NCBI GenBank assembly: GCA_017935145.1
Contig: JAGBIE010000015.1
Span: 1-64,000, forward strand
Direction: 5' to 3'
Length of the DNA stretch: 64,000 nucleotides
Source of the DNA: Oscillospiraceae bacterium
Lineage (GTDB): Bacteria; Bacillota; Clostridia; Oscillospirales; Oscillospiraceae
The position numbers were made by a program, and so were the translations under genes. A model generated the notes under the pieces. That model was not told the origin of the DNA and searched no databases. It saw only the letters and a program-made list of their open reading frames with translations. Below are positions 53,560-64,000 of this stretch, piece by piece (positions within the stretch are counted from its first letter, which is position 1; each line of letters begins with the position of its first letter).

Positions 53560-55539
53560 ATGTCCTGCAAAATTCTGCAATATGACTCTTGGCTCACTCC
53601 CTATGCCCCTGCCTTGGAGGCACGCATAGAGCGCTACAAAGAGGTACGGGAACAACTTGTGGGAGATTCTTCCCTCTCAGATTTTGCCAACGGGCATCAC
53701 TATTTCGGCATCCATCCTACCAAAGATGGCTGGGTGTATCGGGAATGGGCGCCTGAGGCGGAAGCTTTGTTCTTCACAGGGGATTTTAACGGCTGGAATC
53801 TCTATGAATATCCCATGACCCGCCTGAATGATGGTGTGTGGGAACTGTCTCTTCCCAAAGATGCCCTCTCGGTGGGGCAAAAGGTGCAGACCATCGTCTG
53901 CCGTAGCGGTGAAACCCTTAGACGGATTCCCGCCTATGCCACACGGGTGATTCAGCAAGAGGATCACTCTTGGTGCTGTGTGGTGGATACCGCTTTGACG
54001 GAAGAATATCCGTGGACGGATGGGAATTTTAAGCCCCGCAAGACCCCTTACATCTACGAGTGCCATATCGGCATGGCGCAGGAAGAGTACAAGGTGGGCT
54101 CTTACCGCGAGTTTACGGAAAAAATCCTGCCCCGTGTGAAAAAGATGGGCTACAACACCTTGCAGATTATGGCCATTATGGAGCATCCTTACTACGGCTC
54201 TTTTGGCTATCAGGTGTCCAACTTCTTCGCCCCCTCTTCCCGTTTTGGCACAGCATGGGAACTGAAAGAACTCATTAACACCGCCCACAGCATGGGAATT
54301 GCGGTGCTTTTGGATGTGGTCCACTCCCACGCGGTGAAAAACACCGAAGAGGGTCTCAGCCGTTTTGACGGCACAGAGTACCAGTATTTCCATGAAGGCG
54401 AACGAGGCAACCATCCCGCTTGGGATACACGGCTTTTTCATTACGGCAAACCGCAGGTACTGCATTTCCTCCTGTCCAACCTAAAGTATTGGATGGAAGT
54501 ATTCCATTTTGACGGCTTCCGCTTCGATGGTGTCACCTCCATGCTGTATCACGACCACGCATTGGGTACGGCATTTACGGACTACTCTATGTATTTTACC
54601 GCCAACACCGACCAAGAAGCGCTGTGCTATCTGCAACTGGCAAATGAACTAATACATAGCCTAAATCCCCACGCCATCACTGTGGCGGAGGATATGTCCG
54701 GCATGCCGGGCATGGCGCTGAAGATTGAAGATGGTGGCATCGGTTTTGATTACCGATTGAGCATGGGTGTGCCGGATTTGTGGATTAAACTCCTCAAGGA
54801 AGTGCCCGATGAGCATTGGAGCATGGGACATTTGTGGTATGAACTCACCACCCGCCGTCCTAAGGAAAAGAGCATTGGTTACTGCGAAAGCCATGACCAA
54901 GCCCTTGTGGGGGACAAGACCATCATGTTCCGCCTGTGCGATGCGGAAATGTATCGCGCCATGAGTAAGTTCATTCCCAGCATGGTCATTGACCGAGGCA
55001 TGGCTCTGCACAAGATGATTCGGCTCATCACCGCATCCTTTGCAGGCGAGGGCTACTTAAACTTTATGGGCAACGAGTTTGGACATCCCGAATGGATTGA
55101 TTTCCCGCGGGAGGGCAACGGATGGAGTTACCACTACTGTCGCCGTCAGTGGTCTTTGGCAGAACGGGATGATTTGCGCTATGGCGACCTGCTCGCCTTT
55201 GACAGCGCGATGCTCCAAACCCTGAAAAGTGGGCGCATCCCTGGAAAGAGCGCCACTTTGCGCCTAATCCACGAGGATGACAAGATTCTTGTGGCAGAAA
55301 AAGGCGACATGCTCTTTATTTTTAATTTCCATCCCAGTACCTCTTATGAGGGTTATTTCATCCCCACAGGAGGGGCGGGAACTTATAAAGTTACCCTCTC
55401 CACCGATGATGGAACTTTTGGCGGATTTGACCGCGTGAGTCATGACTGCTACATAGCAGAATCCCTTCCCGATGGTCGGGTGGGTTTCCGCATTTATCTG
55501 CCCAGTCGCACCGCTGTGGTACTTCGCAAAGAAAAATGA
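53560..55539 (+). CDS. glgB: 1,4-alpha-glucan branching enzyme, GH13
   Basis: 659 residues. A CBM48-like N-terminus (YREWAPEAEALFFTGDFNGW) leads to the GH13 catalytic barrel: LLDVVHSHAVKN, HFDGFRFDGVTSML (nucleophile Asp), VAEDMSGMPG (acid Glu) and GYCESHDQALVGD (third carboxylate), then a C-terminal beta domain. The pattern and length match the eukaryote-like branching enzymes also found in Bacteroidetes and Clostridia. It makes alpha-1,6 branches in glycogen. No other glycogen gene is next to it. Confidence 0.93.
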   Translation: MSCKILQYDSWLTPYAPALEARIERYKEVREQLVGDSSLSDFANGHHYFGIHPTKDGWVYREWAPEAEALFFTGDFNGWNLYEYPMTRLNDGVWELSLPKDALSVGQKVQTIVCRSGETLRRIPAYATRVIQQEDHSWCCVVDTALTEEYPWTDGNFKPRKTPYIYECHIGMAQEEYKVGSYREFTEKILPRVKKMGYNTLQIMAIMEHPYYGSFGYQVSNFFAPSSRFGTAWELKELINTAHSMGIAVLLDVVHSHAVKNTEEGLSRFDGTEYQYFHEGERGNHPAWDTRLFHYGKPQVLHFLLSNLKYWMEVFHFDGFRFDGVTSMLYHDHALGTAFTDYSMYFTANTDQEALCYLQLANELIHSLNPHAITVAEDMSGMPGMALKIEDGGIGFDYRLSMGVPDLWIKLLKEVPDEHWSMGHLWYELTTRRPKEKSIGYCESHDQALVGDKTIMFRLCDAEMYRAMSKFIPSMVIDRGMALHKMIRLITASFAGEGYLNFMGNEFGHPEWIDFPREGNGWSYHYCRRQWSLAERDDLRYGDLLAFDSAMLQTLKSGRIPGKSATLRLIHEDDKILVAEKGDMLFIFNFHPSTSYEGYFIPTGGAGTYKVTLSTDDGTFGGFDRVSHDCYIAESLPDGRVGFRIYLPSRTAVVLRKEK

Positions 55540-55541
55540 TA

Positions 55542-55578
55542 AAAACAGGTCTGTGATGGGCATCACAGACCTGTTTTT
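55542..55578 (+). terminator. terminator after glgB
   Basis: Stem AAACAGGTCTGTGATG / CATCACAGACCTGTTT with T-run. Confidence 0.92.
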
Positions 55579-55612
55579 TCTATCCAAAAGGCAGGATTTT
55601 ACAGAAAATCCA

Positions 55613-55641
55613 TTGAATTTTTTGAGAAAATCCTCTATAAT
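55613..55641 (+). promoter_or_regulatory. promoter of the XRE membrane protein
   Basis: TTGAAT (55613-55618), 17 bases, TATAAT (55636-55641). Confidence 0.65.
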
Positions 55642-55684
55642 ATTGCCGTAAGAAATGAAACAACTTTGTTTGTGGGAATAGATT

Positions 55685-56284
55685 ATGGATGTATTAAAAA
55701 ACAACTTTGCCAAGAAATTGGCAACCCTTCGTCAGAATGCGGGCATGACCCAGTTTGAACTGGGAGAAAAACTCAGTTATTCTGACAAGACCGTTTCCAA
55801 ATGGGAGCGTGGAGAAGCCATTCCCGATGCGGTGGTACTGAAGAAAATCAGTCAGATTTTCTCCGTGAGTGTGGACTCCCTTTTGGATGACAGCACGGAG
55901 GAATCCTTGGAGCAAATCCCCGCACAGGAGGAAAAATCCTCCCGCTTTTCCATCTACCCCTCCATCACTCGCGTGATTCTTGTGGGCATTTGGACCGTGG
56001 CGGTACTGCTGTTTGTGATTTTGTGGCTCAGTTTGGACAAGGTCTATTGGATGGTCTTTGTTTACACTGTGCCTGTGACCCTCATCGCCCTTTTGGTGTT
56101 CAACTCCATCTGGAACAGGGGGAAAGGGAACTTTGTCATTGTGGCGTTTTTGGTTCTCTCCTTGGTAGCAGTGGTATATTTGGGTGTACTACCCCTAAAA
56201 AACGCTTGGCAACTTTTTTTGGTGCTAATTCCTGCAGAATTGCTGGTTTATCTGAGTTTTCGCATTAAAACACGCCATAAATAG
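55685..56284 (+). CDS. XRE regulator with C-terminal membrane domain
   Basis: 199 residues: a DNA-binding XRE HTH (about 8-63, LRQNAGMTQFELGEKLSYSD, KWERGEAIPD), a polar linker, and four hydrophobic segments (about 100-190). Such membrane-tethered regulators are common in Clostridia; the ligand is unknown. The stop is TAG. Confidence 0.85.
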   Translation: MDVLKNNFAKKLATLRQNAGMTQFELGEKLSYSDKTVSKWERGEAIPDAVVLKKISQIFSVSVDSLLDDSTEESLEQIPAQEEKSSRFSIYPSITRVILVGIWTVAVLLFVILWLSLDKVYWMVFVYTVPVTLIALLVFNSIWNRGKGNFVIVAFLVLSLVAVVYLGVLPLKNAWQLFLVLIPAELLVYLSFRIKTRHK

Positions 56285-56317
56285 TTCTCTCCTCACAGTA
56301 GAATTCCAATTCTTACG

Positions 56318-56354
56318 GGAGTAGAGTTCCAATTTTGGAACTCTACTCCTTTTC
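56318..56354. terminator. terminator
   Basis: Stem GGAGTAGAGTTCCAA / TTGGAACTCTACTCC with T-rich tail. Confidence 0.85.
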
Positions 56355-56387
56355 TATTCCCCGTAGACGCATTCCCCATTTTGTGGT

Positions 56388-56416
56388 TTGCAAATCTTTG
56401 GAAAGATGGATACAAT
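56388..56416 (+). promoter_or_regulatory. candidate promoter of the second degV gene
   Basis: TTTGCA (56388-56393), 17 bases, TACAAT (56411-56416). Confidence 0.55.
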
Positions 56417-56442
56417 AGTGCCATCACAAGGAGGGGATTCCC

Positions 56443-57324
56443 ATGAACAATTACATTCTCAGTTGTTGCTCCACGGCAGATTTGAGTCGCGAGCATTTTG
56501 AAAAGCGGAATATCGCTTGGCTTTGCTTCCATTTCTTCTTGGATGGCAAGGAATATATTGATGATTTGGGTGAAAGCCTAAGCTTTGACGAATTTTATAA
56601 AGCCATTGCCGAGGGCGCGGATACCCGCACCTCTCAGATTAACAGCGAGGAGTACTATGCTCATTTCCGCAAATTCTTGGAAGATGGCAAGGATGTTTTG
56701 CACCTGTGCCTTTCCTCTGGTCTCAGCGGTACTGTGAACTCCGCACGAATTGCAGCCGACCAGTTGGCGGAAGAGTTCCCCAACAACAAAGTAGTTGTGG
56801 AGGACTCTTTGGCAGCCTCTTCTGGCTTTGGTCTTTTAATGGAGACCCTTGCCGATATGCGTGACGAGGGCAAAACTTTAGATGAACTGGTCGCCTTCTT
56901 GCAGGATAACATTCTGCGTATGCGCCACTGGTTCTTTACTACCGACCTTTCCACCTTTATCCGTGGTGGTCGTGTCAGCAAGACCAGCGGTTTTGTGGGT
57001 ACGCTTTTGGGCATCTGTCCCCTGCTGGATGTGGACGCAGGTGGTCATCTGACCCCCCGCGAGAAAGTCCGTTCCAAGAAGAAAGTCATCGCCCGCATTG
57101 TGGAAAAGATGGCAGAAGAGGCTGGCACGGATTACAGTGGCAAGTGCTTTATTAGTAACTCTGCCTGCATGGAGGATGCCGAGGCTGTGGCATCTCTCGT
57201 GAAAGAAACTTTCCCCCATCTCAATGGCGATGTGGTCATTAACTCCATTGGTACCACCATTGGTTCCCACACGGGTCCTGGCACTGTGGCGCTGTTCTAT
57301 TGGAGCAAAGAAAACAGAGTGTAA
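56443..57324 (+). CDS. DegV family fatty-acid-binding protein
   Basis: 293 residues. YILSCCSTADLSREHFEKRN start, the SSGLSGTVNSARIA motif (about 87-100), DLSTFIRGGRVSKTSGFVG and GSHTGPGTVALFYWSKE, typical of DegV/FakB. It presents a bound fatty acid to the fatty acid kinase. A ribosome site AGGAGG precedes it. A different DegV is at 16976. Confidence 0.92.
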   Translation: MNNYILSCCSTADLSREHFEKRNIAWLCFHFFLDGKEYIDDLGESLSFDEFYKAIAEGADTRTSQINSEEYYAHFRKFLEDGKDVLHLCLSSGLSGTVNSARIAADQLAEEFPNNKVVVEDSLAASSGFGLLMETLADMRDEGKTLDELVAFLQDNILRMRHWFFTTDLSTFIRGGRVSKTSGFVGTLLGICPLLDVDAGGHLTPREKVRSKKKVIARIVEKMAEEAGTDYSGKCFISNSACMEDAEAVASLVKETFPHLNGDVVINSIGTTIGSHTGPGTVALFYWSKENRV

Positions 57325-57330
57325 ATGCTA

Positions 57331-57364
57331 CGAACTCCGCATCCAAGGGTGCGGAGTTCTTGTG
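57331..57364 (+). terminator. terminator after degV
   Basis: Stem GAACTCCGCA / TGCGGAGTTC with short T-rich tail. Confidence 0.75.
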
Positions 57365-57388
57365 TTTAGGGGCTAACCATGCTATAGT
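57360..57388 (+). promoter_or_regulatory. promoter of the MBL-fold gene
   Basis: TTGTGT (57360-57365), 17 bases, TATAGT (57383-57388). Confidence 0.55.
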
Positions 57389-57408
57389 AAAGAAAAGGCG
57401 GTGATAGG

Positions 57409-58284
57409 ATGAAGCGCAAGCAAAAAAAGCGAATCCCTCTGTGGTTGGGGATACTGATTTTGGTGGTTGTCATTGGCAACCTGTTTTTCAGTAAGAGTCC
57501 ATCCCCTGTCACACCTGCATCCACAGGGGAACTGCAGGTGCATTTTATTGATGTAGGGCAGGCGGATTGCATTCTGCTCATGAACGAAAATGAGAGCATG
57601 CTCATTGACGCAGGCAACAACAACGATGGTGATTTGGTCTGCACCTACCTGCAGAGTATGGGCATTACGAAACTGGATTATCTCATTGGCACGCATCCCC
57701 ACGAGGATCACATTGGTGGGTTGGATGTGGTGATTCAGAATTTTGACATTCAAAACTTCATGATGCCCAAATTCCAAGCCAACACCGCCACTTTTGAAGA
57801 GGTGCTGGACGCGGCGCTGGATAAAAATCTCAAAATCACCGCACCCAAGCAGGGAGATACCTTCACCCTTGGCACTGCTCTTGTGACAGCGGTACAGTGT
57901 TATGAAACCACCAAAGAAACCAACAACGCATCCATCATTCTGCGGGTGGATTTTGGTGAGACTTCCTTCCTCTTTACTGGCGATGCAGAAATGGAAGCGG
58001 AAAATGCCGTACTGCTCAGCGGAGTGAACATCGACTGCGATGTGCTCAAGGCGGGGCATCACGGCTCTCACACCTCTTCTTCCCGCGCCTTTTTGGATGC
58101 GGTGAGTCCCGAATATGCGGTGATTTCCTGCGGAACGGGCAACTCCTACGGGCATCCTCACAAGGAGACCTTGCAAGCCTACGAAAACCGCAACATTACT
58201 GTCTATCGCACGGATTTACAGGGCACTGTGCGGGCATTTACCGATGGAAAGAACCTCCGTTGGGAAACGGCAAAAGGAGGCTAA
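57409..58284 (+). CDS. ComEC/Rec2-like MBL-fold hydrolase, membrane-anchored
   Basis: 291 residues: basic start, one N-terminal membrane segment (LWLGILILVVVIGNLFF), then a metallo-beta-lactamase fold. The motif THPHEDHIGG (about 94-103) is the HxHxDH metal site; FTGDAEMEAE and KAGHHGSHTSSS supply more ligands. It resembles the stand-alone MBL domain of ComEC, which acts outside the membrane, perhaps as nuclease. Followed by a DUF3006 gene three bases on, a frequent pair. Confidence 0.88.
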   Translation: MKRKQKKRIPLWLGILILVVVIGNLFFSKSPSPVTPASTGELQVHFIDVGQADCILLMNENESMLIDAGNNNDGDLVCTYLQSMGITKLDYLIGTHPHEDHIGGLDVVIQNFDIQNFMMPKFQANTATFEEVLDAALDKNLKITAPKQGDTFTLGTALVTAVQCYETTKETNNASIILRVDFGETSFLFTGDAEMEAENAVLLSGVNIDCDVLKAGHHGSHTSSSRAFLDAVSPEYAVISCGTGNSYGHPHKETLQAYENRNITVYRTDLQGTVRAFTDGKNLRWETAKGG

Positions 58285-58287
58285 TGT

Positions 58288-58497
58288 ATGTACACCATTG
58301 ACCGATTTGAGGGCGAAATTGCCCTTTTGGAGCAAGAAGATCGCAAGATGATAGAAGTCCCACGCCATCTTCTTCCCCATGGGGCAAAAGAGGGCGATTG
58401 CCTGCAGTTTGACGGTAAAACATATGTCTTGGATGAAGAAGGAACGCAGAAACAAAAAGAGCGCATCAAACGAAAGATGGATGCCCTTTGGAACTAA
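58288..58497 (+). CDS. DUF3006 family protein
   Basis: 69 residues, MYTIDRFEGEIALLEQED start and GDCLQFDGKTYVLDEEGT, the small beta domain DUF3006. It overlaps no gene and is three bases after the MBL-fold gene, so cotranslated. It may bind that protein's product or partner; the function is unknown. Confidence 0.85.
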   Translation: MYTIDRFEGEIALLEQEDRKMIEVPRHLLPHGAKEGDCLQFDGKTYVLDEEGTQKQKERIKRKMDALWN

Positions 58498-58498
58498 A

Positions 58499-58534
58499 GA
58501 AAAGACCGTGAACGAATCGTTCACGGTCTTTTTT
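58499..58534. terminator. bidirectional terminator
   Basis: Stem AAAGACCGTGAACGA / TCGTTCACGGTCTTT with T-run between convergent genes. Confidence 0.9.
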
Positions 58535-58540
58535 GTTGCT

Positions 58541-60337
58541 TTATTCCACGGTAAAGTCAAAGTCACGGACTACATAGACCTGACTGCGGACATTGCCCGC
58601 GGTATCAAAGGAACTGCCACCATTATAGGCTGTGACAGCACAGTGATAGTCCCCTTTCTGCAAGCCAAGATCTACTGCGGTAATGGTGTTCTCCTTGGCA
58701 TACAACTGATATTGGGGCATAGTGTTGCTGGATGCAAAGTCCCAACCAGTGAGCAAACGAGTGGTTCTAAAATCGGACATTTGGAAGGTTTTTCCACTCC
58801 AATAGCGAATGTATTCTTTGACCAAATTACCTTTCCCATCAGTAATGGTGATAACCACATGAGAGATGGGTTGGTTGGCGGTGAGAGTGCCAGAGGCCAA
58901 ATTCTGCAAAGAGGGCTCTTCTGCAGAATCTGCAACTTGGAAGGTTTCCAAAGTTTCGCTTTCCTCCCGCAAGGCAGCGCAGGTTACAGGCAGATAGCCT
59001 TGCTTTCTCAGCCAAGTGTAATCTACGGTTTTATCGAACTCGCCAAAGCGGTAGAGCTCCATATCGTTTACAACTTCGTCAGCACTGCGGGCACTGCCGT
59101 TGGTATCGCAGTAAGTAACCTTTTGATTGGCGTGATCCACGGCAGTGATGAGAATAGCGTGTCCTACGCTTTTACCGCCCTGAATGCGGGTGCAAGCATC
59201 GCCAGGTTGGAGTTGGGCGTACGCCGCGTCCATAACTGCACTGCCGTTATTTTCAATATCAGCAAAAGTATCCACCAGTGTTCCATTTTTGATAGTCCAC
59301 TGATATTCGCCCACTTGGATGCAACCGTGCGCAGGAGTCATTTGCTGCGCGGCAGCAAAGGTAACATCACCAGATACTGCGCGCCATGACCACAGGGGGA
59401 TATCGGCGCAACTCAGGCCAAACAGCCAGTACCATCTTTGAACAAACAGGGTAGGTGTGATGTGGTACACACCATCAACAAATTCGCTGGGCAGGGTGCG
59501 ATAAGCGGCAAGACTGGTAAGCCCTTCGTTATAGGGAACACCACGATAGATAAAGTCTTCGCTCAATGCCTTGTGATTGTGGGTGCTGTTATTGATATCC
59601 GCCTCAGCAACGGGGACGCCACCTTCGTAGTGGTAATAGTCCCCCGTCAGGTGTTTGGCATAGGCCACCACCTTGTTTCGGCGGGCTTCCAAGGTGTCCT
59701 CTTCGTAGGTTACGGCGAGGGAGATGTCCCGAGGACTAGCGTCTGTCACCAAATAGGAATATGGGAGGGTCAGTTCCTCGCCATTGACGCTAACGCTGTA
59801 CACCGCCCAACCAGCATTGGGGCTTACGGTGAATGTCACGCGGTCACCCACCGCATACTCGTTTTTGAGTCCTAACACAGTGCCTTTGGCGCTATCGTTG
59901 GTCACATTCACAGTGGTGGGTTTTAATTGGTAGGTGATGGAGATGGTGACATCACTGCCAATGGCAAAGGAATAAGTGCCATCCTGCTCAGTGATGGGCG
60001 CACCATTGCAGGTGATGGTATCCACCATGTAATTGGAGGATTCCACTGTGAAAGTGACGGTCTCCCCTGCTTCATAGCGCTCCTTGAGCCCGTTCACAGT
60101 GCCAATGGCAGAGTCATGTTCCAAGGTTACCCCATAAAAAACGGGGTCTGCAGGAGTATCATTGGGCAAAGACGGGGGATTTTCTCCCTCATTGGGGGAT
60201 GGGTTGGGGTCTGTGGGGATATCGGGGTCTACAGCTTGGTTGGGAGCGTCTGGGGTGGTGGGCTTCGCGCCACAACCTACCAGGATGCCAAGCACCAAAA
60301 CGGATGCCACCAGCACAAAAATGAACCGAGATTTCAA
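58541..60337 (-). CDS. lipoprotein of a tandem family with candidate Cys-His-Asp triad, member 1
   Basis: 598 residues. Lipobox LVGC (Cys near 22), an acidic Pro/Asn linker, two beta repeats (about 65-130 and 130-200, GTVNGLKERYEAGETVTFTV and GTVLGLKNEYAVGDRVTFTV), then a catalytic-looking domain. C310 in LSCADIPLWSW, H393 in VGHAILITAV and D411 in YCDTNG line up with the two downstream paralogues in the order Cys-His-Asp, as in NlpC/P60, CHAP or papain folds. A C-terminal beta domain ends VVRDFDFTVE. No family name is certain. Own promoter and terminator; repeat number exceeds that of the other members. Confidence 0.8.
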   Translation of the reverse strand: MKSRFIFVLVASVLVLGILVGCGAKPTTPDAPNQAVDPDIPTDPNPSPNEGENPPSLPNDTPADPVFYGVTLEHDSAIGTVNGLKERYEAGETVTFTVESSNYMVDTITCNGAPITEQDGTYSFAIGSDVTISITYQLKPTTVNVTNDSAKGTVLGLKNEYAVGDRVTFTVSPNAGWAVYSVSVNGEELTLPYSYLVTDASPRDISLAVTYEEDTLEARRNKVVAYAKHLTGDYYHYEGGVPVAEADINNSTHNHKALSEDFIYRGVPYNEGLTSLAAYRTLPSEFVDGVYHITPTLFVQRWYWLFGLSCADIPLWSWRAVSGDVTFAAAQQMTPAHGCIQVGEYQWTIKNGTLVDTFADIENNGSAVMDAAYAQLQPGDACTRIQGGKSVGHAILITAVDHANQKVTYCDTNGSARSADEVVNDMELYRFGEFDKTVDYTWLRKQGYLPVTCAALREESETLETFQVADSAEEPSLQNLASGTLTANQPISHVVITITDGKGNLVKEYIRYWSGKTFQMSDFRTTRLLTGWDFASSNTMPQYQLYAKENTITAVDLGLQKGDYHCAVTAYNGGSSFDTAGNVRSQVYVVRDFDFTVE

Positions 60338-60378
60338 AACACCAAATCCTTTCGAATATGCGTATCATCTTCCCTCTC

Positions 60379-60407
60379 AGTATACCATCTTCATGTCTAA
60401 CTTTCAA
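60379..60407 (-). promoter_or_regulatory. promoter of lipoprotein member 1
   Basis: Minus strand TTGAAA (60402-60407), 17 bases, TATACT (60379-60384). Confidence 0.75.
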
Positions 60408-60444
60408 CAAAAAAGCAGACCGCCGAAGCGGTCTGCTCTTTTTT
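60408..60444. terminator. terminator after lipoprotein member 2
   Basis: Stem AAAAGCAGACCGC / GCGGTCTGCTCTTTT with CGAA loop. Confidence 0.88.
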
Positions 60445-60447
60445 TAG

Positions 60448-61914
60448 TTAGATGGTGAAATCAAAGTCGCGAACGACAATTTCATCGCCAGTGGAGATGT
60501 GGGAGGTCAACTTGCAGTGGTACTGACCGGGTTCCAAATTACGGATGTTGATGCATTCCTCGTCAGGATAGTGTTCCACATAGCTTTCCTGATCATCGTG
60601 AACGGACTTTTTGAAGGCCCAGATATCAAAGTCCTTGTGGTTGAACTCGTAGGAATGGCGGACAGCCTGCTGTACTACATTGCCATCTTTATCCGTGATG
60701 GTCATGGTGTGATAGTCCATGTAGTAGTTGCACTCAATGATGCCGTCAAACAGGGTATCCACGCTGAGGTTGCCAGCCTGGGAGTCGGTGACAACGACTT
60801 CGCCAATTTCATTTTCGGGATAAATCAGTTCGGGGCAAGTGACAGGCAGATAGCCGTTGGAGAGAAGCTGGCTGTAGGTCATTTTGCCATCCACGGTGGT
60901 GGCGGTGCGAACAAGAATCACATCGCCCGTGGCGGTGGTGGCTTCCACATCGTGATACCAGCCGTTGGTATCGTGATAAATCACATAGCTATTGCCAGGG
61001 TCGATGGTGCCATCGGGTCTGCGGGCCACATGGTTTTCTGCCACCATGGCCAAGTGAGCACCAGCGTTTTTCACCTGGAATGCAAGACCATCACCCTTGA
61101 GGGTCAGGGCATAGGATTCCAGCATGATTTCATCGCCATTTTCTTTGATGATGGCGTGGGTGTCCATGTATTCATTTTTGTTGTGGTATGTCCAAGGGCC
61201 AACCTTCACAAGACCGCGGGCCGTAGTGGCTTCCGATGCCCAACGCACGGTGATGGAGTCGGAAATTTCAGACCAAGACCAGTACACAGCGTCAGCGCAA
61301 CTGCCACCGAGCATCATGCCCCAGCCAGGCTGTGCAAAACGGGAGGTGTCAATGTAGTGGACACCGTCTTCGTCCACATCCGTCACATACATCATGTAAC
61401 CTTCAAAGGAGGTGTTGCCGTTGGTATAGGGCACGCCACGGTAAATCATATCGCCCTTGATGCTATAAGCCGTGTTGCCGTCCGTATGGGTATGGGGCAG
61501 GTCAATATCGTAGTAGAACAAGGTGGCGGTGTATGCGCGCATGCTCTCTTCCACGATGTCACGGCGGGTAGCCATTTCGGGATTTTCAGCACGGACAGCA
61601 TAGGGGTCAAAATACTTGGTTTCGATTTTGAAGCCACTGTCCACAGAGAGGGTAATCTGATCGGATTCAGGCAGGGCAACGGTTTCACCATCTACCAAAA
61701 TCTCACTGCAAGCGTTACTGCCTTTGACTTTGATGGTAACCACCACATCCATGGGAGCAGTGACTTCCGTAACAGGCTCGCCCTTTTTGGTAGCCAAGGT
61801 GACAGTACCCTTGGATTCGTCATTTTTCACCACGATGGCGTTCTTGTTGCCACCGCAGGCGGTGAGCAGGCACAGGCTGAGGCACAGCGCCAGCAATAAT
61901 GCAAGTTTCTTCAT
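60448..61914 (-). CDS. lipoprotein of the tandem family, member 2
   Basis: 488 residues. Lipobox LTAC, one N-terminal beta repeat (KNDESKGTVTLATKKGE), then RRDIVEESMR and YRGVPYTNGNTSFEGYM shared with its neighbours. Candidate triad C206 (GSCADAVYWSW), H287 (AHLAMVAENH) and D315 (YHDTNG). The C-terminal domain YYMDYHTMTITDKDGNVVQQ to VVRDFDFTI recurs in all members. Likely cell-surface hydrolase or amidase; substrate unknown. Confidence 0.8.
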   Translation of the reverse strand: MKKLALLLALCLSLCLLTACGGNKNAIVVKNDESKGTVTLATKKGEPVTEVTAPMDVVVTIKVKGSNACSEILVDGETVALPESDQITLSVDSGFKIETKYFDPYAVRAENPEMATRRDIVEESMRAYTATLFYYDIDLPHTHTDGNTAYSIKGDMIYRGVPYTNGNTSFEGYMMYVTDVDEDGVHYIDTSRFAQPGWGMMLGGSCADAVYWSWSEISDSITVRWASEATTARGLVKVGPWTYHNKNEYMDTHAIIKENGDEIMLESYALTLKGDGLAFQVKNAGAHLAMVAENHVARRPDGTIDPGNSYVIYHDTNGWYHDVEATTATGDVILVRTATTVDGKMTYSQLLSNGYLPVTCPELIYPENEIGEVVVTDSQAGNLSVDTLFDGIIECNYYMDYHTMTITDKDGNVVQQAVRHSYEFNHKDFDIWAFKKSVHDDQESYVEHYPDEECINIRNLEPGQYHCKLTSHISTGDEIVVRDFDFTI

Positions 61915-61962
61915 GGGAGATTTCCTCGCTTTCGGGCAGAATACTCTGCAAAATGTAGAGTA

Positions 61963-61991
61963 ATTATATCACATCTGCCACAGTTTGGCAA
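61963..61991 (-). promoter_or_regulatory. promoter of lipoprotein member 2
   Basis: Minus strand TTGCCA (61986-61991), 17 bases, TATAAT (61963-61968). Confidence 0.75.
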
Positions 61992-62005
61992 CCACGCAAA
62001 GGCAA

Positions 62006-62040
62006 AAAAGACCCCAAGCCACAGTGGCTTGGGGTCTTAA
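62006..62040. terminator. terminator after lipoprotein member 3
   Basis: Stem AAGACCCCAAGCCAC / GTGGCTTGGGGTCTT. Confidence 0.88.
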
Positions 62041-62046
62041 AATTAC

Positions 62047-63495
62047 TTAGACAGTGAAGTCGAAGTCACGGACAACGATTTCGTCACCAGTGGAGATGTG
62101 GGAGGTCAGCTTGCAGTGATATTCACCAGCAGGCAGATCGTTCACCTTGATGACATCGGTGGGCAGGTACAGCTTGTAGCCCGTGCCGGTATCGTCATGC
62201 TCCAGGCTCTTGAACATGGACAGGTCGTAGTCCTTGTGGTTCTGTTCGTTGGACTGACGGACAGCCTTCTGCACCACGTTGCCAGCCTTATCGGTGATGA
62301 CCATGGTGTGGTAGTCCATGTAGTAGTTGCATTCGATAACGCCCTTGAGGACAGTGGACTTGTTCAGGTTGCCAGCTTCGGAGTCGGTCACTTCCACTTC
62401 TTCCACGCCCTCGGACTCATACATGAGTTCGGGAATGGTCACAGGCAGGTAGCCCATGCTGAACAGAGCGCCGTAGGTCAGCTTGCCGTCCACCACGCAG
62501 GCGGACTTGGCAGTGGCGGTTTCGCCATTGGCCAGAGTGACTTCTACATCGTAGTAAGAGCCGTTGGTATCGTGATAGATGACGTAGCTCTTGCCTTCGT
62601 CGATGGTGCCGTCATCCTTGCGGACAACATGGTTTTCAACAACGAGAGCCAAGTGGCCACCGCCGTTCTTCTGGAAGACAATACCGTCACCCTTGAGAAG
62701 CAGGGCGTAGCATTCATTCATCTTGTCAACGCCGTTGTCAACGAGGATGGCGGGGGTTTCTACATAGACATCGCGGTCATAGGTCCAACCACCAACATAG
62801 ATGATGCCCTTACGAGCGGTGGTTTCAGCAGCGTAACGCAGGGAGATGGTGTCAGAAACTTCGGCCCATGCCCAATACACAGCGTCAGCGCAGTTGTTGC
62901 CCAGCATACAGCCGTACTGATGGATGAAGTAAGAGGTATCCATATGGACAATGCCAGTGGTTTCATCAATTTCCTTCACATAGTTCATGTAGCCATCGAA
63001 GGAGATGTTGCCGTTGTTGTAGGGCACGCCACGGTACAGAGTATTGGCGAAGAGGGAGTGGTCGCGACCAGCGCGCTGGTGGGGCAGATCCTTGTCATAC
63101 ATGAACAGAGTGGAGCAGTTGCGTCTCATGTTGGCTTCCACGATGTCACGACGGGCAGCCAGAACGGTGCTGTTAGCGCGTTCTTCGTAGGGGTTAAAGA
63201 AGTCAACGTTCACTTTCAGGTTGCCTTCTACCTTGACAGCGACCATGCCGTCTTTATCCAGTTCTACTTCCTGACCATTGACAGTCACGCTCTTGACAGC
63301 GTTCACGCCAGTGGGCTCAACATAGACATACAGTTCAGTGCCTTTTTCGCACTCAGTCACCAGGTTGCCGTTATAATCGGCCACCATGACGCTACCCATA
63401 GTATCGTCAGCGGTGATAGTCACCTTGCACTTACCGCAGCCAGCCAGCAGGCAGACGCACAGAAGCACGGTGAGCAAAACAAGAAACTTTTTCAT
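62047..63495 (-). CDS. lipoprotein of the tandem family, member 3
   Basis: 482 residues from ATG 63495 (MKKFLVLLTVLLCVCLLAGC, lipobox LAGC), with TAGGAGG in front; the open frame upstream runs over the promoter. It is closest to member 2: RRDIVEANMR, YRGVPYNNGNISFDGYM, candidate triad C202 (NNCADAVYWAW), H281 (GGHLALVVENH), D309 (YHDTNG), and the shared C-terminal domain ending VVRDFDFTV. Confidence 0.8.
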   Translation of the reverse strand: MKKFLVLLTVLLCVCLLAGCGKCKVTITADDTMGSVMVADYNGNLVTECEKGTELYVYVEPTGVNAVKSVTVNGQEVELDKDGMVAVKVEGNLKVNVDFFNPYEERANSTVLAARRDIVEANMRRNCSTLFMYDKDLPHQRAGRDHSLFANTLYRGVPYNNGNISFDGYMNYVKEIDETTGIVHMDTSYFIHQYGCMLGNNCADAVYWAWAEVSDTISLRYAAETTARKGIIYVGGWTYDRDVYVETPAILVDNGVDKMNECYALLLKGDGIVFQKNGGGHLALVVENHVVRKDDGTIDEGKSYVIYHDTNGSYYDVEVTLANGETATAKSACVVDGKLTYGALFSMGYLPVTIPELMYESEGVEEVEVTDSEAGNLNKSTVLKGVIECNYYMDYHTMVITDKAGNVVQKAVRQSNEQNHKDYDLSMFKSLEHDDTGTGYKLYLPTDVIKVNDLPAGEYHCKLTSHISTGDEIVVRDFDFTV

Positions 63496-63547
63496 GTGTG
63501 TGTTCCTCCTAATTTTCATGGGCCTTATGCCCCATATTACGCAACTA

Positions 63548-63576
63548 ATTATAACATAAAGAGTCCTCGCCCGCAA
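63548..63576 (-). promoter_or_regulatory. promoter of lipoprotein member 3
   Basis: Minus strand TTGCGG (63571-63576), 17 bases, TATAAT (63548-63553). Confidence 0.75.
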
Positions 63577-63634
63577 CCATTTTCCCTTTGGCAAAATGTC
63601 TAAAACAAGAAAAAAAAACTGGTGATTTTGACGA

Positions 63635-63672
63635 AAGAAAAGCACCACCCATCATCATTGACGGGTGGTGCT
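63635..63672. terminator. terminator after lipoprotein member 4
   Basis: Stem AGCACCACCC / GGGTGGTGCT, followed on the minus strand by a TTTTC tail. Confidence 0.8.
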
Positions 63673-63678
63673 GTATGT

Positions 63679-64000
63679 TTAGACGGTGAAATCAAAATCG
63701 CGAACCACTTGCTCTCCGCCCTTGATGGTATAGACGATGAGGGTACAGTGGTATTTGCCTGCAGACAGGGCATCTACATCAATGCAGTCGTTTGCAGGGT
63801 AGAGTTTGAGATGGGTGTTGGCTTCCTTCACTTGGGGAACACCGAAATCTGCCACATCGTAGCTCTTGTGGTCCCTCTCGTGGGAGATGCGGGCCACCTG
63901 CTGTACCACGTTGCCTTTTTCATCGGTGATGGTCATTTCCAAGTCGGACATGTAGTAGTTGCAGGTGATGGTGCCATCCAGAACGGCATCGGCATTGAGG
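63679..64000 (-). CDS. lipoprotein of the tandem family, member 4 (C-terminal part only)
   Basis: About 106 C-terminal residues up to the window edge: CNYYMSDLEMTITDEKGNVV, the HERDHKSYDVADF block and the end VVRDFDFTV match the C-terminal domain of members 2 and 3. The catalytic part lies outside the window. Confidence 0.75.
   Translation of the reverse strand, partial: LNADAVLDGTITCNYYMSDLEMTITDEKGNVVQQVARISHERDHKSYDVADFGVPQVKEANTHLKLYPANDCIDVDALSAGKYHCTLIVYTIKGGEQVVRDFDFTV

Follow-up and report, generated by a model that had tools for sequence, protein, structure and literature searches.

NlpC/P60 enzymes (PF00877, MEROPS C40) and CHAP enzymes (PF05257) are related cysteine hydrolases, and a GD motif marks the cluster that they form (PMC10318531). 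In classical NlpC/P60 domains, gamma-D-Glu is contacted by an Asp and a Ser that flank the catalytic Cys and by an upstream Tyr; apart from the catalytic dyad, no residues are conserved more strongly than these three (PMC2954226). Here, we describe a family of lipoproteins encoded at the end of a 64,000-nucleotide stretch of DNA from an Oscillospiraceae bacterium (assembly GCA_017935145.1, contig JAGBIE010000015.1, positions 1 to 64,000; hereafter the window). The last 5.5 kb of the window hold three complete genes, paralogues A to C, and the 3' end of a fourth, paralogue D, all on the minus strand. Both structure prediction and structural alignment support assigning their shared hydrolase domain to an unmodelled branch of the NlpC/P60-CHAP superfamily. 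We consider it probable that the proteins are lipid-anchored surface thiol hydrolases, highly diverged members of this superfamily with diversified specificity.

Two structure models, both with paralogue B as the reference, bear on the fold. A core model built from nine paralogues reached a predicted local distance difference test score (pLDDT) of 86.6 and a predicted template modelling score (pTM) of 0.87. The first fold search with this two-domain model was dominated by immunoglobulin (Ig)-like matches to the C-terminal domain, so the hydrolase domain was modelled alone with AlphaFold2 from 67 sequences, giving a pLDDT of 95.3 and a pTM of 0.92. In this model the Cys opens helix 93-101, the His lies on strand 172-182, and the Asp lies on strand 197-213, the arrangement of a papain-like core, with the Cys where a helix begins and the His and third residue on successive strands of the sheet. 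The domain is about 256 residues long with large insertions, compared to about 125 residues in a classical NlpC/P60 domain. VIA-align, for which Z scores of 7-8 are given as typical for unmatched models, was run on the Foldseek candidates. Every one of its 20 best matches was an NlpC/P60 domain (115-128 residues at 2.5-3.0 Å, Z 9.4-10.9); CHAP domains (Z 8.4-8.8) and Tae1 (Z about 8) came next. These matches exceed the unmatched-model level and all fall in one superfamily, supporting an earlier sequence-only reading of the window that had proposed an NlpC/P60-like fold. That reading had named two outcomes as fatal to its proposal, one being a predicted fold with the Cys, His and Asp far apart; all three are instead predicted to lie on the canonical elements.

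The catalytic residues are conserved far more strictly than the rest of the domain. The positions originally listed (C310, H393 and D411 in paralogue A; C206, H287 and D315 in B; C202, H281 and D309 in C) are exact and fall in the same alignment columns, which are invariant in the nine paralogues of the genome. A wider alignment comprised 67 homologous domains from 14 genomes, with approximately 22-55% identity to paralogue B; two degenerate domains of one protein (L039 domains 2 and 3) and three truncated domains were left out. Its only invariant columns are C93, D162 and H174 in core numbering, corresponding to C206, D275 and H287 of paralogue B, and the conservation of Cys and His in 67 of 67 domains is far beyond chance. 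D162 belongs to the GD motif, in which a G or an A comes before it. At the third position (D202; D315 of B) every domain has a polar residue, with Asp in 31, Glu in 31, His in four and Gln in one, and the residue directly after it is Gln in 56 of 67. The second outcome named as fatal was a Cys engaged in a disulfide. A role for C93 as a conserved disulfide partner was rejected, since no second constant Cys column exists in the 67 domains; the next most Cys-rich columns hold Cys in 37 and 34 domains.

Links to known families at the sequence level are faint. Scans of the window proteins and the 67 domains with Pfam, NCBIfam and PHROGs yielded no hydrolase-domain model above cut-off, and PF00877 gave no match at E 0.1 among the 67 members or at E 1 for the window proteins. 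CHAP was matched by two of the 67 members, both from one genome (G526; E 0.0051 and 4.4e-4), with a best score of 21.1 bits against a cut-off of 26, in register over the GD, GH and Glu positions. Weak library matches to LTD, 7tm_2 and SerK_C were taken as chance, and sequence profile searches of PDB chains found nothing credible. In a profile-profile comparison with 53 NlpC/P60 domains of relatives, the Cys aligned with the Cys of DCSG, D162 with GD, and the His with the His of GHVG. The probability was 6% by default and reached 87% only after gap costs were loosened; because the default score is low, the alignment supports the register and not homology by itself. The suggestion of a possible new domain is therefore apt for sequence families, in which no library model matches, and not for the fold, whose superfamily is already known.

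Comparison with named systems places the family nearest to NlpC/P60 enzymes such as Acd24020 of Clostridioides difficile (7cfl), the mycobacterial RipA and RipB, SagA and YkfC. Shared features are the core fold with the Cys at a helix start, the GD motif, the His on the next strand, a polar third residue and a GxPY motif with its Tyr. The present family differs in being unmatched by the Pfam model, in having a domain twice as long, in an Asp or Glu as third residue in place of the usual His, and in having mostly lost the Asp before the Cys. Its members are lipoproteins with an Ig-like C-terminus, in which no SH3b or LysM domain was found. CHAP enzymes such as LysK and Ly7917 resemble the family in their acidic third residue, in the two sub-cut-off matches in register and in structural Z scores of 8-9, but their relay is Cys-His-Glu-Asn, whereas here the Asp or Glu is directly followed by a Gln in most domains. 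The type VI secretion amidase Tae1/Tse1 has a related fold (Z about 8) but is a small injected effector with an immunity partner, an architecture not present in these genes. The nearest crystallised analogue is the NlpC/P60_2 module of Ruminococcus flavefaciens RflaF_05439 (PDB 4EYZ, PMC3573020), a surface-attached protein of a gut Clostridia member whose NlpC/P60 likeness is likewise by structure only. Similarities include duplicated modules, a long insertion (between Tyr71 and Cys109 in 4EYZ) and dockerins, which occur also in distant relatives of the present family. The differences are a third residue of Gln230 in 4EYZ and the tandem gene array, which is not described for it. 4EYZ was not recovered in the PDB-chain profile searches (alignments A6 and A8) or among the structural matches listed, an absence that does not amount to exclusion.

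The residues that read the substrate show a different pattern from those that act on it. Of the three substrate contacts, the PY-motif Tyr is present in 65 of 66 domains, the Ser after the Cys in 38 of 67 and the Asp before the Cys in no more than 12 of 67; paralogues A to C have S or N at this last position. Judging from these residues, catalysis looks retained and classical specificity mostly lost. Given that the Asp that reads gamma-D-Glu is mostly missing, the substrate is probably something other than the classical stem peptide.

Judged by motif, each of the nine paralogues carries a signal peptide with a lipobox (LVGC, LTAC, LAGC and LAGC in A to D), and lipoboxes are nearly universal. 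The C-terminal beta domain that the sequence-only reading saw as shared is real and models as an Ig/fibronectin type III (FnIII)-like sandwich, with residues 258-375 of the core model of B matching such folds. The N-terminal regions of the window proteins resemble InlB-type B-repeats below threshold (PF18998, E 0.009). S-layer homology (SLH) domains occur in relatives from two genomes (G148 and G399); apart from SLH in these few, no LysM, SH3b or other wall-binding domain was found in the members scanned. Two distant relatives from other families of the class (L136:604-3297 and L138:1-2817) have a C-terminal dockerin and a Big_3 domain, and the wider family may include cellulosome-type components. 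Another relative (L134:913-3297) has a hydrolase domain split by an insertion of about 250 residues, which separates the half with the Cys from that with GD and His. In L039:3-3209, from G148, three hydrolase domains stand in one protein; domain 1 keeps Cys and His, and domains 2 and 3 have lost both. The catalytic centre of this protein thus decays as a whole, which may mark a transition from an enzyme to a binding domain.

A recurrent minority of members has no signal peptide and looks cytosolic (G506:C25:34700-42220, G506:C25:60227-61534, L067:8399-10717, L077:1527-5237, L084:492-3209 and L066:4775-5941). These proteins often contain two or three hydrolase domains with Cys and His intact, and they share rows with the lipoproteins. 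One possibility, by analogy with the cytoplasmic NlpC/P60 enzyme DPP VI, is that they act in the cytosol on imported peptides.

The family is sporadic within one order of gut Clostridia. Matches were found in 14 of 394 sampled genomes of the order and in 3 of 300 of the same taxonomic family, the source genome being included in both counts; in each set one match covers the C-terminal part or domain only. Searches with a single protein or early profiles gave the count for the taxonomic family, and by these searches the four congeners lack the proteins. Across the class only weak partial matches appeared, two of them in dockerin-bearing proteins, and a phylum sample searched at E 1e-8 gave no match besides the source genome. 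Viral contigs and phage records contained no relatives; plasmid matches of an SLH-bearing relative were set aside because they cover the SLH part only. A profile scan of a contig collection found none with the first alignment and nine loci with a closer one. Among named assemblies, relatives occur in those from goat caecum (RGIG1942), water-buffalo caecum (RGIG7255) and sheep colon (RGIG5579), in Lapin-001 (we read "lapin" as rabbit) and in the Oscillospiraceae metagenome-assembled genomes SIG619 and SIG621.

Copy number varies widely among these genomes. The counts are 31 domains in G506, 24 in G558, 19 each in G472 and G552, 12 in G405, nine in the source genome (G000), seven in G481, five in G526, four in G148 and one to three in the others. 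In G506, a 1.5-Mb goat-caecum genome, head-to-tail rows at 14.5-42.2 kb (plus strand) and 60.2-76.1 kb (minus strand) of one contig take up about 44 kb. These rows (C25:14535-42220 and 60227-76137 of that genome) contain about 20 and 8 family genes, respectively, nearly all with lipoboxes (L145/L065/L146/L147). A maximum-likelihood tree of the 67 domains places the nine source-genome copies on one side of a branch with a Shimodaira-Hasegawa-like approximate likelihood ratio (SH-aLRT) support of 99, with weak deep branches. Genome labels change 19 times on this tree compared to 47 in shuffles, clustering which indicates that the expansion is largely lineage-specific. The source genome, 79% complete, has no NlpC/P60 or CHAP match, and several expanded genomes likewise lack a canonical NlpC/P60 match, whereas each of the four congeners has one or two NlpC/P60 proteins. 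We found no usable literature on the expansion or on these assemblies.

In the explanation that we favour, the signal peptide and lipobox would bring the protein to the outside of the membrane, where a B-repeat-like stalk would carry the enzyme domain and the Ig-like domain would end the chain. For catalysis, the Cys that begins the core helix would depend on activation by the His of the sheet strand that follows, a His itself held by the Asp or Glu one strand further on, and the conserved Tyr of the PY motif would occupy the oxyanion Tyr position. The likely reaction would be hydrolysis of an amide or isopeptide bond. Specificity may have diversified, since the gamma-D-Glu-reading Asp is mostly gone and tandem duplication gave many divergent copies per genome; these copies would serve varied peptide bonds, either in non-classical wall peptides of the cell or its neighbours or in gut glycopeptides and proteins, rather than one housekeeping cut. 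Several observations weigh against this explanation. The best Foldseek match for the hydrolase domain alone, a P60 domain, is weak (E 0.06), and the sequence-only tests reach no significance for NlpC/P60. In addition, the authors of the 4EYZ structure saw no protease activity in that module (PMC3573020), and the several relatives without a signal peptide are a poor fit to a purely extracellular role.

Other readings of the same fold fare less well. The proteins could be classical peptidoglycan endopeptidases or autolysins that cut the cell's own stem peptides in growth and division, with redundant or condition-specific copies. Their NlpC/P60 fold and the wall hydrolases among which their nearest structural neighbours fall would suit this role, and they might substitute for the canonical proteins that go unmatched in the source and several expanded genomes, although these gaps may stem from incomplete assemblies (63-97%). 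We regard this as unlikely given the scarcity of the Asp whose role is to read gamma-D-Glu (PMC2954226), the near-absence of wall-binding domains in the members scanned, and a copy number of 1 to 31 in a family that most members of the order lack, which speaks against a housekeeping function. Acyl- or aminotransfer, in which a Cys-His-Asp/Glu thioester is passed to an amine or lipid and surface proteins or glycans are cross-linked, would fit surface anchoring, and papain-like folds with such triads include transglutaminases (PMC10318531). The structural neighbours are hydrolases (NlpC/P60, CHAP and Tae1) and not transglutaminases, however, and the family's GD motif is the one that characterises the NlpC/P60-CHAP cluster, making transfer improbable. 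Least probable of all, we believe, is a non-catalytic adhesin or binding protein that, like the inactive NlpC/P60 protein RipD, uses the fold for ligands. The structural matches include RipD, two of the three L039 domains have lost Cys and His, the Ig-like and B-repeat-like modules would suit adhesion, and expansion with divergence is common for adhesins. Yet all 67 domains, with approximately 22-55% identity to B, keep Cys, His and GD unchanged, the degenerate L039 domains being left out, and a fold used for binding only would not preserve just the catalytic residues.

Surface thiol hydrolases with diversified specificity might, more speculatively, form a lineage-specific arsenal. We offer tentatively, as a proposal open to considerable doubt, that gut Clostridia with small genomes maintain rows in which diverging surface enzymes stand together with signal-less multi-domain paralogues. 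If so, the targets for attack or harvest would be varied peptide bonds that belong to neighbours, the diet or the host, a role beyond the wall maintenance known for NlpC/P60 enzymes. The superfamily and fold are known; the branch is new and unmodelled, and its lineage-specific expansion is striking. Current annotation does not see the family, although it makes up almost 3% of the G506 genome. Provided that its members are active, a name and a model for the family would let dozens of "hypothetical lipoproteins" in a genome be annotated as predicted surface hydrolases and would raise the question of why goat and rabbit hindgut bacteria multiply such enzymes. With the classical substrate-reading residue mostly gone, the known uses of the NlpC/P60 fold would also be widened.

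The four neighbouring paralogues of the sequence-only reading are all real and paralogous, but the genome holds nine copies and not four. Paralogue A (58541..60337; 598 aa) starts at a TTG preceded by AAAGGA and consists of a Pro-rich linker, two B-repeat-like beta domains, the hydrolase domain (58934..59692) and the C-terminal Ig-like domain. Paralogue B (60448..61914; 488 aa) has its hydrolase domain at 60790..61575 and its Ig/FnIII-like sandwich at 60448..60804. Paralogue C (62047..63495; hydrolase domain at 62389..63162) has 482 aa counted from an ATG preceded by a ribosome-binding site, or 533 aa from an in-frame GTG further upstream. Paralogue D enters the window with its 3' end (63679..64000); the complete protein of 501 aa (C25:63679-65185 on the window's contig) has C220, H301 and D329. 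The search beyond the window that the earlier reading had recommended revealed a fifth gene, paralogue E, wholly outside it on the same contig (C25:65377-66835), and four further copies in a row on a second contig (C14:26266-33777). The paralogues are mostly 30-58% identical to each other, and most have good ribosome-binding sites upstream.

The genes had also been credited with a promoter and terminator each, which holds for the terminators of all four and for the promoters of A and B. Stem-loops of 10-17 pairs, all assigned to the minus strand, follow the stops of A (58500..58533, working in both directions), B (60414..60437, listed on the plus strand with a T-run on both sides), C (62008..62038) and D (63641..63672). 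Promoter-like sites on the minus strand precede B (61963..61991; TTGCCA-17-TATAAT, 11/12, with an extended -10) and A (60379..60407; TTGAAA-17-TATACT, 10/12); for C and D the scan gave a weak match or none. Total counts of promoter and terminator motifs were no higher than in shuffles, so their support rests on position and not number. Judged by eye, the neighbouring region of the window (53560-58496) encodes a glycogen-branching-type enzyme, an XRE-type regulator, a DegV-like protein and a ComEC-like protein with a metallo-beta-lactamase fold. Beyond the gene rows lie ABC transporters, for branched-chain amino acids on the window's contig (C25) and for sugars on the second contig (C14).

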